The notes under the pieces were generated by a model. The model worked only from the letters and a program-made list of their open reading frames with translations. It had not been told where the DNA came from and ran no database searches. A stretch of DNA of 64,000 nucleotides from Rhodothalassiaceae bacterium (lineage in GTDB: Bacteria > Pseudomonadota > Alphaproteobacteria > Sphingomonadales > Rhodothalassiaceae), in assembly GCA_026004935.1 (NCBI GenBank), contig BPKC01000001.1:2429381-2493380 (forward strand), in the 5' to 3' direction. The position numbers were made by a program, and so were the translations under genes. Shown piece after piece: positions 21,456 through 23,313 of this stretch; position 1 is the first letter of the stretch; every line of letters begins with the position of its first letter.

Positions 21456-21507
21456 CAGGTAAACAGCGCTGCTCTCGTTTAGCGATCGCCTCAGACTTGC
21501 TTGCGCC

Positions 21508-21530
21508 ATGTCCAACATGATATTGAACAT
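21508..21530. promoter_or_regulatory. Imperfect palindrome upstream of tcmP, possible operator
   Basis: ATGTCCAA and TTGAACAT form an inverted repeat with one mismatch and a 7-base AT-rich centre, 30 bases before the tcmP start. It sits where a dimeric repressor could control the tcmP-DUF5131 pair. No regulator gene lies beside it. Confidence 0.35.
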
Positions 21531-21559
21531 ATGGGGAACAGCCTCGGGAGGAGGGATAC

Positions 21560-22513
21560 ATGGTCAGCTCGCATCAATGGGGCGGCAACTGGACAATCAT
21601 CAAACTCGAGACACTCGAAAGATATCTCCAAGCATATACAACCGCTCTCAGAAACCGGTTCTTCCTTGCCTACATTGATGCTTTCGCAGGCAGTGGTCGG
21701 GTGCCGCTGAAGAAAAAGTCGCCAGCATGCCCATCGGAAATAGATGGATCGGCCATTCGCGCCTTGAAATTGCGACACCCTTTTGAAACTTACATATTCA
21801 TTGATGCGGATAGAAGAAAGCTTGATGCTTTGCAGAGACGCATAAATCGAGATTATTCCAAACGTAACGTTATATATCTTCATGGGGACGCGAATTCGAT
21901 CCTGCAGAACCTCCGTGCGGACCAGAGATTCTGGAGCCCGAAGCGGCGAGCTGTCATTTTTCTAGATCCTTTCGCTCTTAATGTGGAGTGGAAGACTTTG
22001 GAAGCAATTGCGGCAACGGAAAAGGTTGATCTTTGGTATCTCTTCTCGATCGGAGCGGTTCTGCGGCTTCTTCCGCGCCAGGGGCTGCCGGGTGACCCGA
22101 AATGGCACGAAAAGCTCACGAAGATCCTCGGGACGAAGGACTGGCAGCAGGCCTTCTACGAGCCACCGGCCCAGCCTTCATTGCCATTCCAATCCGACGA
22201 GGAAGAGCGTGTGCGCGAAAAGGGGGCGCAAGCCATCTTGAACTTCGTCCTAGAGCGAATGAAAAATCTTTTTCCCTATGTGCACGAGGAACCGGCACTC
22301 CTGAGAGACACCGGCAATCGGTTGCTGTTTGCCCTCTTCTTTTCGATGGCAAACCCTTCGGAAAATGCCAAGAATTTGGCCCTGAATTTTATAAAAGACA
22401 TGTTCACAGACAAAGACCATGACTGTCCGTGTGCGAAATCCGAAGCGCAGAACGCGAAGGGAAACAACGGGGAGAGGCCCGATTTACCTCTCTTCGGCAA
22501 GGGGATGAAATGA
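21560..22513 (+). CDS. tcmP: Three-Cys-motif partner protein TcmP
   Basis: A 317-residue TcmP-family protein. It has the family opening HQWGGNWTIIKLETLERYL, a methyltransferase-like motif I (YIDAFAGSGRV at about 38-48) and a later FLDPFALNVEW resembling the DPPY catalytic motif of N6/N4 methyltransferases. A SAM-dependent Rossmann fold is therefore likely, but the substrate is unknown. A GGAGGAGG site precedes the ATG. The gene is visibly less GC-rich than its neighbours (many A/T third positions), suggesting horizontal acquisition. Its stop overlaps the next start (ATGA), so the pair is translationally coupled. TcmP is known almost only as partner of the downstream Gp37/Gp68 family. Confidence 0.88.
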   Translation: MVSSHQWGGNWTIIKLETLERYLQAYTTALRNRFFLAYIDAFAGSGRVPLKKKSPACPSEIDGSAIRALKLRHPFETYIFIDADRRKLDALQRRINRDYSKRNVIYLHGDANSILQNLRADQRFWSPKRRAVIFLDPFALNVEWKTLEAIAATEKVDLWYLFSIGAVLRLLPRQGLPGDPKWHEKLTKILGTKDWQQAFYEPPAQPSLPFQSDEEERVREKGAQAILNFVLERMKNLFPYVHEEPALLRDTGNRLLFALFFSMANPSENAKNLALNFIKDMFTDKDHDCPCAKSEAQNAKGNNGERPDLPLFGKGMK

Positions 22514-23271
22514 CGCGCTCAGCCATCGAATGGACCGATGCGACGTGGAATCCCGTCGCCGGGTGCACAGCGGTCTCGCCGGGGTGCACCAACTGCTACG
22601 CGGCGCGCATGGCGGCGCGGCTGGAAGCCATGGGGCATTCGAAATATGCGGGCACGACGCGTCGCAGCGGTCGGAAGACGGTATGGACGGGGCGGATCAA
22701 CCTCGACCCCGAAGCGCTGGCCCTGCCGCTGCGGTGGCGCCGGCCACGACGCATTTTCGTGAACTCGATGTCGGATCTCTTCCACGAGGCCGTGCCCGAC
22801 TCGTTCATCCGCCACGTGTTCGCAGTGATGTCCGCGGCCGACTGGCACCAATATCAGGTGCTGACAAAACGGCCTGATCGCATGCGGGCGTGGTTGGCGG
22901 CTGCGCAATTCCAGCCTTCGGACCATATCTGGCTCGGCACATCGGTGGAGAACGCCGACATGCTCTGGCGCGTGGATGAGCTGCGCCGCACACCGGCCAT
23001 CGTGCGCTTTCTCTCATGCGAGCCCCTGCTTGGTCCTTTGGACGGCATCGACCTGACTGCTATCGACTGGGTTATCGTAGGCGGCGAGAGCGGACCGGGT
23101 GCCCGCCCCATGCGTGAGGAATGGGTGCTCACGATCCGCGATGCTTGCCTGAGTGCAGGGGTGGCCTTTTTCTTCAAGCAGTGGGGCGGGAGAAACAAAA
23201 AGAAGACCGGTCGCCTGCTGGAAGGGCGCATATGGGAACAGTATCCTGCGCATTTGAGACCGGCGGCTTAG
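22510..23271 (+). CDS. DUF5131 (phage Gp37/Gp68) three-Cys-motif protein
   Basis: A 253-residue protein beginning [19 protein letters not shown], the signature of the DUF5131/Gp37-Gp68 family. Three cysteines (Cys19-x6-Cys26-x2-Cys29) sit at the N-terminus and resemble, but do not match, the CxxxCxxC cluster motif of radical SAM enzymes. Other family segments are [37 protein letters not shown] and [11 protein letters not shown]. The family occurs in phages and genomic islands, often beside tcmP, and has no established reaction. A cluster-dependent role such as nucleic-acid or nucleotide modification is inference only. It is convergent with ccoS. Confidence 0.9.
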   Translation: [253 protein letters not shown]

Positions 23272-23313
23272 GTCTTGCGCAACCTGTCAAGTCAAAGGAC
23301 CGTGCTCCTCTAA

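Follow-up and report, generated by a model that had tools for sequence, protein, structure and literature searches.

A TcmP/DUF5131 gene pair beside a cbb3 cluster as a candidate mobile module for nucleic-acid modification

This analysis addressed the function of two overlapping genes of the TcmP and DUF5131 families, which lie at the end of a cbb3 cluster in a Rhodothalassiaceae bacterium, within a stretch of 64,000 nucleotides that is referred to as the window. PADLOC-DB already lists the pair as the defence candidate PDC-M41, giving no description of function. Literature searches for DUF5131, PF07505 and PDC-M41 returned no paper, and none was found on the function or reaction of the pair or with a biochemical or phage experiment on it. 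The excerpts retrieved for 'three-Cys-motif' give no function, the listed name matches to TcmP use the letters in other meanings, and nothing combining radical SAM and defence, judged by the listings, treats this pair. New here are the placement of DUF5131 among radical-SAM-like proteins, the RlmJ/Trm1-type fold of TcmP, the exchange of partners and the unequal conservation of the two proteins. For a widespread pair for which no assigned reaction was found, the fold placements and the partner exchange lead to a concretely testable function.

Layout and composition of the locus

The arrangement is that described by the sequence-only reading, i.e. two genes overlapping by an ATGA between a quinone-reductase-like gene and the ccoS end of the cbb3 cluster, and the motifs it had named, DAFAGSG and DPF in TcmP and C-x6-C-x2-C in DUF5131, are present (Table 1). 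The short minus-strand frame between ccoI and the DUF5131 gene, which is matched in relatives, is presumably ccoS. The longest open frame of the DUF5131 gene begins with a GTG at 22429, while the ATG at 22510 gives the N-terminus that is usual in the family. The overlap makes translational coupling of the two genes likely. Elsewhere, 60 of 76 same-strand pairs are separated by no more than 30 bp, with starts taken from the longest open frame.

Table 1. Features of the TcmP/DUF5131 locus (positions in the window)
Feature	Position	Strand	Remarks
TcmP gene	21560-22513	+	317 aa; TIGR04474 5.6e-53, PADLOC PDC-M41A 6.4e-76; methyltransferase-fold partner
DUF5131 gene	22510-23271	+	253 aa; PF07505 1.1e-100, PADLOC PDC-M41B 5.3e-106; divergent, radical-SAM-like
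ATGA stop/start overlap	22510-22513	+	4 bp common to TcmP and DUF5131
TcmP motif I, DAFAGSG	21677-21697	+	residues 40-46; SAM-binding loop of Rossmann methyltransferases
TcmP motif IV, DPF	21965-21973	+	residues 136-138; catalytic-loop position
DUF5131 C-x6-C-x2-C	22564-22596	+	C19, C26, C29; predicted [4Fe-4S] site
DUF5131 GGESG motif	23080-23094	+	end of barrel strand (secondary structure of the model)
GC-poor patch holding both genes	21460-23275		GC comparison
Alcohol-dehydrogenase/quinone-reductase-like gene	20469-21455		neighbour of TcmP
Copper ATPase gene ccoI	23548-25932	-	neighbour on the DUF5131 side

The lower GC content that had been claimed for the pair was confirmed. TcmP has 51.0% GC (58.5% at third codon positions) and DUF5131 63.9% (76.4%), compared with 72.6% in the quinone-reductase-like gene, 71.8% in ccoI and 70.0% in the window. 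In five relatives, one of them of the same genus, no pair is present at the ccoS end up to about 1.3 kb past ccoS, and in four of the five ccoS is followed instead by sequence matching the cobalamin riboswitch/TonB receptor region of the window. TcmP and DUF5131 are regarded as probably acquired genes. As traces of insertion, no tRNA genes were found across the window and no outstanding flanking repeats around the pair.

Predicted folds of the two proteins

The model of DUF5131 (pLDDT 93.4, pTM 0.90) points to a radical-SAM TIM barrel. Its top Foldseek match is spore photoproduct lyase (E 6.6e-3, probability 0.99); no Foldseek match fell below 0.001, and the top ten include an aldo-keto reductase and designed barrels. 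In VIA, spore photoproduct lyase aligns over 195 residues at 2.9 A (Z 13.1), followed by viperin, RlmN and LipA, and the first 38 rows are all radical-SAM enzymes, as classed by their titles. At the cysteine motif, a profile match to SplB-like proteins was obtained (E 2.2e-4, probability 45%), and the GC..GC..C[YF]A motif of spore photoproduct lyase and the SplB-like proteins (PA0069 family) counts as a further likeness. In contrast to spore photoproduct lyase, DUF5131 is smaller, shares about 12% identity and has the CX6CX2C spacing. Neither a PF04055 match nor a PDB match by sequence search was found with E up to 1.

CX6CX2C was found in 202 of 202 DUF5131 homologues, with the canonical CX3CX2C absent, a sample that is not independent because the loci were found through conserved DUF5131 words; GGESG is present in 199 of the 202. 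The only invariant cysteines are C19, C26 and C29, whereas C213 occurs in at least 90%. Protein A of the radical SAM mobile pair A/B (TIGR04471/TIGR04470) carries the motif CX3CX2CY and is matched by a DUF5131 HMM at 88 bits (5.6e-28, searched among 15 proteins). As this relative of DUF5131 carries the canonical motif, CX6CX2C looks like a three-residue insertion into CX3CX2C. Judged from the model and this homology, DUF5131 is related to the radical-SAM enzymes but has diverged from them and is no canonical member; an iron-sulfur cluster and radical chemistry may be expected in it. This gives support to the cluster-type enzyme that the sequence-only reading had proposed.

TcmP matches TIGR04474 with 180.5 bits, above the curated cut-off of 53 bits, and the three-Cys-motif (PF07505) protein expected next to a member of this family is the DUF5131 protein, whose gene it overlaps. 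The model of TcmP shows the Rossmann fold of methyltransferases, and motifs I and IV are present. D40 and G44 of motif I and D136 and P137 of motif IV are invariant in the 47 rows of the alignment, and F42, A43 and G46 are conserved in at least 90%. Motif IV reads DPFG or DPYG most commonly among relatives of TcmP, resembling the DPFG of Trm1 and differing from the DPPY of RlmJ. The motifs are not kept across all subgroups: the strict pattern of motif I occurs in 96 of 133 TcmP proteins, and DPTG, DPKG and DPWG are found as variants of motif IV.

RlmJ (23S rRNA m6A2030) was matched by profile in the PDB (2.5e-4), and structural matches were obtained to RlmJ (Foldseek 4.4e-7, Z 14.8) and to Trm1 (tRNA m2,2G26; Z 15.6 at 5.3 A). 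Both resemble TcmP in fold and motif I, but identity is only about 10-15%, and no Pfam RlmJ or Trm1 match was found in TcmP with E up to 1. The two are the nearest among many methyltransferases of similar Z, so that any base specificity of TcmP would be a guess. On the evidence of the model, TcmP has a SAM-dependent methyltransferase fold, closest to these two RNA modifiers, as expected for the methyltransferase-like partner proposed earlier, and it may transfer methyl groups.

Pairing, partner exchange and distribution

Co-occurrence of the two families, which had been stated beforehand, was clear in 385 genomes of one class (P = 4.6e-29). TcmP passed its cut-off in 29 of these genomes and DUF5131 was found in 54, in 25 of them without TcmP. 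Of the 30 TcmP matches above cut-off, 29, the window pair included, had a DUF5131 gene no more than 1 kb away, the gene order varying. Two further sets of 80 loci consisted of the best 80 of 597 and the best 80 of 579 confirmed matches. TcmP lay within 700 bp of DUF5131 in 71 of the 80 loci from named genomes, in four orientations, and in 34 of the 80 viral loci, being missing in the other 46. Convergent pairs make up 28 of 105, and the open frames of loci L085-L250 include no TcmP-DUF5131 fusion.

The pair occurs on conjugative plasmids and viral contigs, and 408 plasmid and 159 phage records match DUF5131. A phage search with a single TcmP query, which misses divergent TcmP, gave 2 records, and a TcmP scan of genome contigs returned no relatives. 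The pair is patchily distributed and borne by plasmids and phages. Its two proteins are conserved to very different degrees. Median identity is 0.54 for DUF5131 and 0.19 for TcmP, and DUF5131 is the more conserved partner in 4652 of 4656 locus comparisons. A conserved DUF5131 with a fast-diverging TcmP is what would be expected if the former carried out the chemistry and the latter the recognition; the two may form a physical complex. Mirror-tree analysis gave a modest correlation (r 0.30, reached by 0 of 999 permutations), to which shared descent contributes.

DUF5131 can also be replaced. In 9 of 11 plasmid records, from a cyanobacterium and haloarchaea, TcmP lies beside a canonical CX3CX2C SplB-like radical-SAM protein, with no DUF5131; in the two exceptions, Gloeothece and Halorussus, the stretch read contains no TcmP. 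This count is confined to SplB-like records with full cover and excludes 44 records of lower cover, of which one pair A/B locus was read. Mobile pair A/B is likewise a two-gene unit on a plasmid, and its protein B is homologous (115 bits) to the SplB-like protein that takes the place of DUF5131 beside TcmP. Unlike DUF5131, protein A keeps CX3CX2C; TcmP is not annotated in the one A/B locus read, and the window DUF5131 scores 65 bits against TIGR04471, far under the cut-off of 355 bits. With regard to PDC-M41, the M41A and M41B models match TcmP and DUF5131 over nearly their whole length in adjacent genes, these being model matches and not PADLOC's system rules. DUF5131 matches PDC-M30B almost equally well (2.4e-100). 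As it matches both, PDC-M41 and PDC-M30 seem to share one subunit and to differ in the type of TcmP.

Defence neighbourhood, proposed mechanism and alternatives

The earlier suggestion of a phage-related or defence module was borne out in part. It is favoured by the PADLOC listing, by the carriage on viral contigs and by defence neighbours on plasmids and in the broad genome set. In the latter, neighbours match models of Hachiman, AbiE, type I/III restriction-modification, CBASS and others among the matches listed (25 of 241 matched models); the scan covered 107 of 217 neighbours, those left out including proteins below 150 aa, had no matched control, and may count one protein under several models. 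Plasmid neighbours include BREX and Abi genes, as judged by eye from 12 selected records, one of them unannotated; the Phaeobacter and P. aeruginosa neighbourhoods contained no named restriction or abortive-infection gene. The search for TcmP on plasmids had given ten records, all of which except H2, H7 and H9 were read. In S. meliloti, TcmP is listed as adjoining the Hna defence gene in an excerpt of PMC12445080.

However, a matched chromosomal test with 18 loci per side, its control positions picked by the analyst, gave defence matches for at most 6 of 140 pair-side and 1 of 141 control proteins, which is not significant (Fisher P 0.059). Six is an upper bound, as the tallies do not reveal two models on one protein. 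Matches to MADS models, found on both sides (control: mad3 4, mad2 1, mad8 1; pair: mad2 1), were set aside as generic in this figure, and with them counted the sides do not differ. Exclusion by length affected 11 of the 144 proteins on the control side, 8 of which were scanned later, and 2 of the 140 on the pair side, both of which were scanned later. Genes were called longest frame first, which in GC-rich DNA produced some antisense frames in both sets (e.g. over ccoI, L318). At the window locus, none of the four flanking proteins scanned is a defence gene.

In our estimation, there is an even chance that DUF5131 and TcmP constitute a mobile two-enzyme module for nucleic-acid modification, probably directed against viruses. 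DUF5131 would be a radical-SAM-type barrel of minimal size, similar in kind to spore photoproduct lyase (SplB), which would bind the predicted [4Fe-4S] cluster at C19/C26/C29 and cleave SAM to yield a 5'-deoxyadenosyl radical. TcmP would most likely recognise the nucleic acid and flip out the base, and its DP[FY] loop may in addition place a methyl group on an exocyclic amine. Acting jointly, the two enzymes would introduce or remove a base modification in DNA or RNA, and the most likely setting is conflict with phages and other mobile elements. Viperins use radical chemistry on nucleotides; should our reading be true, phage-host conflict would also draw on radical chemistry that acts on nucleic acid. 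More tentatively, the TcmP/DUF5131, TcmP/SplB-like and mobile A/B pairs might be one type of mobile system and form a previously unrecognised immune or counter-immune class, in which an SPL-like enzyme, aimed by the fast-evolving TcmP, edits nucleic acid by radical chemistry to give a hypermodified or deliberately altered base.

The pair could instead serve self-protection or counter-defence, modifying the DNA of phages or plasmids to make it resistant to host restriction, which we consider rather unlikely. Conjugative plasmids and 34 of the 80 viral contigs carry the pair, and viral DUF5131 without TcmP sits among replication genes, sometimes with DNA methylases: C5-methylases account for 5 of 141 near neighbours in the 46 viral loci without TcmP, Mycobacterium phage TChen is a further case, and at L171 an open frame that we take to be ParB-like adjoins the DUF5131 gene. 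Yet bacterial and plasmid neighbours are often host-type defence systems, and no gene apart from TcmP recurs, within a range of 3 kb, at more than 6 of the 80 viral loci. Repair, in which the SPL-like enzyme would reverse a base lesion (a photoproduct, an alkylation or a defence or phage adduct) located by TcmP, is unlikely too. The top fold match of DUF5131 is a DNA photoproduct repair enzyme and no nuclease recurs beside the pair, but the patchy spread (54 of 385 genomes), the plasmid and phage carriage and the defence neighbours are unusual for general repair, and TcmP varies quickly, which is not what a protein recognising one constant lesion would do. None of the three outcomes set in advance as refuting the sequence-only reading, i.e. 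co-occurrence at chance level, no fold match and a conserved housekeeping site, was found.

A toxin-antitoxin-like or stabilisation unit, with one protein modifying host tRNA or rRNA under the control of the other, appears improbable: the genes overlap, are often on plasmids and comprise one conserved and one fast-evolving member, with TcmP nearest in fold to RNA methyltransferases, but both look like enzymes, the free orientation is unusual for such operons and DUF5131 stands alone in many genomes. Despite its position next to ccoS and ccoI, a housekeeping operon for cbb3 oxidase assembly or metalloenzyme maturation is scarcely credible; it was rejected because the site is without the pair in the five relatives, four of them having the riboswitch/receptor sequence there, and the GC content of the pair also differs from that of its flanks. 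Classical restriction-modification with a linked nuclease was likewise rejected, as no third gene recurs beside the pair. The commonest neighbour cluster after TcmP is a DNA-methylase-looking protein (judged by eye), found within 10 kb at 10 of the 80 loci.

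The TcmP and DUF5131 genes and their genomic junction

This analysis revealed that the window carries TcmP and DUF5131 genes in a head-to-tail arrangement with an ATGA overlap. As the sequence-only reading had described, both have a lower GC content (51.0% for TcmP and 63.9% for DUF5131) than the flanking genes (about 72%). The 2.9 Mb genome holds a single match to each family, and the models of PDC-M41, a candidate defence system of PADLOC-DB, match both proteins (6.4e-76 for TcmP and 5.3e-106 for DUF5131).

With regard to the locus, the pair lies at the ccoS end. It was absent from this position in the five relatives compared (L011, L012, L013, L014 and L016, the last being of the same genus as the window genome), in sequence extending to about 1.3 kb past ccoS. 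In four of the five, the sequence past ccoS instead matches the 49 kb region of the window, where the cobalamin riboswitch and the TonB-receptor-like gene lie, which points to a rearrangement of this stretch in the window genome. DUF5131 was found in 8 of the 60 genomes searched around the window genome, its own included; the only genome of the same genus in that set (89% complete) lacks it. We therefore read the site as a variable junction rather than a conserved operon; the earlier claim of an inserted island probably holds, and its housekeeping-operon alternative fails on the five relatives. Neither a tRNA nor a convincing flanking repeat marks an insertion event. The four flanking proteins scanned were a penicillin amidase, a MotB/OmpA protein, a quinone-reductase-like enzyme and ccoI. 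The penicillin-amidase gene is apparently split over two overlapping frames (16958-19367, + strand), which appears to reflect a frameshift or a sequence error. The genome's own radical-SAM gene of the SplB-like PA0069 type (G000:C1:2876406-2877468) is matched in two overlapping pieces that lie in different frames, as a frameshift would produce.

Coordinates of features in the window
Feature	Position	Strand	Remarks
Penicillin amidase, frame	16958-18880		PF01804 profile positions 1-259 of 675 only
Penicillin amidase, frame	18024-19367		Likely continuation, by eye
TcmP	21560-22513	+	317 aa; TIGR04474, 5.6e-53
DUF5131	22510-23271	+	253 aa; PF07505, 1.1e-100
TonB-receptor-like gene	47658-49568		Preceded by the riboswitch
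Cobalamin riboswitch	49741-49984	-	RF00174, 90.5 bits; ahead of the TonB-receptor-like gene

Fold assignments

The TcmP profile hit RlmJ in the PDB (2.5e-4), and RlmJ was also the first Foldseek match of the predicted model (pLDDT 87.6; 4.4e-7). The VIA leaders were Trm1, with a Z of 15.6 but at 5.3 A, and members of the RlmJ family, with Z values of 14.2-15.2. The predicted methyltransferase fold is clear, in line with what had been read from the motifs, but these likenesses do not fix the substrate, as many further methyltransferases reach a Z of at least 13. Within the window protein's subfamily, all 47 rows share D40, G44, D136 and P137, which is consistent with a working methyltransferase-like site. 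When every TcmP type is counted, 96 of 133 show the strict motif I pattern, and the residue that follows DP is variable. One longer TcmP bears a winged-helix domain (PF22560, 1.2e-6).

For the DUF5131 model (pLDDT 93.4, pTM 0.90), Foldseek gave no match below E 0.001; the top match was spore photoproduct lyase (E 6.6e-3, prob 0.99), and the top ten also included an aldo-keto reductase and designed barrels. Upon realignment, the likeness to the lyase lies in the barrel fold (Z 13.1, 195 residues, 2.9 A); viperin, RlmN and lipoyl synthase followed, and the first 38 rows were all radical-SAM enzymes, which supports the cluster-type enzyme proposed earlier. The cysteine motif is CX6CX2C in 202/202 homologues, as opposed to the canonical CX3CX2C. 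In a profile comparison with SplB/PA0069-like proteins (19 columns, E 2.2e-4, prob 45%), a DUF5131 segment of 22 residues (not shown) aligned to DRSINPYRGC---EHGCVYCFA, with a three-residue insertion in DUF5131; the control TcmP aligned elsewhere in the profile (E 0.085). In addition, a DUF5131-only HMM detects a homologue in E. eligens, the radical SAM mobile pair protein A (88 bits, 5.6e-28, set of 15), which has CX3CX2CY. This alignment and this homology explain CX6CX2C as a probable three-residue insertion. Nevertheless, searches of DUF5131 against PF04055 and the PDB sequences gave no hit, so we call it a divergent relative of radical-SAM enzymes rather than a canonical member.

Co-occurrence and exchange of the partner

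Among 385 genomes of the class, 29 have TcmP and 54 have DUF5131 over the family cut-off. All 29 TcmP genomes contain DUF5131 (hypergeometric P 4.6e-29), so the co-occurrence stated in the sequence-only reading is far beyond chance. DUF5131 lies less than 1 kb from 29 of the 30 TcmP matches; the thirtieth starts 138 bases from a contig end. TcmP was found within 700 bp of DUF5131 in 71 of the best 80 named-genome loci (TcmP first in 44, DUF5131 first in 15, convergent in 11, divergent in 1) and in 34 of the best 80 viral contigs, with a gap of at most 30 bp in 60/76 same-strand pairs. The converse is weaker: an over-cut-off TcmP is missing from 25 of the 54 genomes with DUF5131, and in these the DUF5131 protein is often longer. 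Annotated phage records match DUF5131 in 159 cases and the window TcmP in 2, a single query that misses divergent TcmP. In the control panel, Thermotoga maritima has DUF5131 over cut-off and no TcmP match, apparently a stand-alone bacterial copy. Agrobacterium and Rhizobium plasmids (L088:11986-14962; L258:11986-16239) carry one DUF5131 with two different TcmP genes and a DEAD helicase nearby.

On a Nostoc plasmid, the place of DUF5131 is taken by a PF04055 radical-SAM gene, divergent from TcmP, whose product resembles the PA0069 and pair-B (mobile pair protein B) families below both cut-offs. A plasmid search with this protein returned 55 records, and the 11 with at least 80% cover were inspected and HMM-scanned. 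DUF5131 was absent from all 11 stretches. TcmP adjoins the radical-SAM gene or genes in nine, from Nostoc and eight haloarchaea, and is absent from those of Gloeothece and Halorussus. CX3CX2CY is present in 16/16 SplB-like proteins of these stretches. Five of the eight haloarchaea (L320, L322, L325, L327 and L328) have a three-gene version, with TcmP and two canonical radical-SAM genes. As TcmP sits with canonical radical-SAM proteins where DUF5131 is missing, these results support TcmP partnering an SplB-like radical-SAM protein of either type, with DUF5131 as a functional equivalent.

Possible function and defence context

We favour a two-enzyme nucleic-acid modification module, in which TcmP would bind and flip a base, and perhaps methylate it, and DUF5131 would use radical chemistry on that position or one next to it. 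We infer the cluster, radical step, methyl transfer, complex, substrate and host benefit. The main rivals to such a module are a counter-defence role for mobile elements and the repair of lesions. Over 97 pairs (4656 comparisons), median identity was 0.54 for DUF5131 and 0.19 for TcmP, a figure that takes in poorly aligning subfamilies, and in 4652 of the comparisons DUF5131 was better conserved than TcmP. Such a contrast between a stable chemistry subunit and a quickly diverging partner fits, and does not prove, a recognition role in a conflict.

The defence or phage assignment of the sequence-only reading stood in part. In its favour are the PDC-M41 models, the viral contigs and the plasmids: in 9 of 11 annotated plasmid neighbourhoods the inspected stretch includes a gene of restriction, BREX, Abi or Shedu type, a DNA-methylase gene or a DUF1837-helicase pair, versus 0/4 for comparison stretches of 40 kb from other parts of four of these plasmids; two of the comparison stretches hold only VapBC/RelBE-type modules. 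Against it, no defence protein was found among the four flanks scanned at the window locus, and a matched chromosomal comparison (18 genomes, threshold 1e-20) gave at most 6/140 pair neighbours matching defence models versus 1/141 controls (Fisher 0.059), with MADS hits, found on both sides, set aside; with these counted, the two sides were alike. The pair-side models were a type IIG enzyme, SoFic, LmuA, PDC-M53A, PDC-M53B and PDC-M48B, and the control-side model was PDC-S07. Among 107 proteins at most two genes from pairs (L172-L211), PADLOC matches included Hachiman HamA and HamB, a type III methylase, SIR2, HerA, AbiEi, AbiEii, HmaA, DarG, an oligonucleotide cyclase, a type I specificity subunit, DrmD and BrxHI, with one protein per listed model and a single protein possibly matching several. 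An expression-difference table in PMC12445080 lists Hna SMa2245 of S. meliloti beside TcmP SMa2243.

The pair is already catalogued, through the TIGR04474 name and PDC-M41. In the literature searched, which most subscription papers lie outside, no paper that assigns it a function came up, nor did the fold assignments, CX6CX2C origin, recurrent canonical radical-SAM swap and divergence asymmetry, which this analysis adds. On the P. aeruginosa plasmid p12939-PER (L255:10994-14244), the pair lies between site-specific integrase and Tn3-family transposase genes, a few kb from mercury-resistance genes. In Phaeobacter (L254:14986-18485), a dGTP triphosphohydrolase gene directly follows the pair and a caspase-family gene lies about 3 kb upstream.
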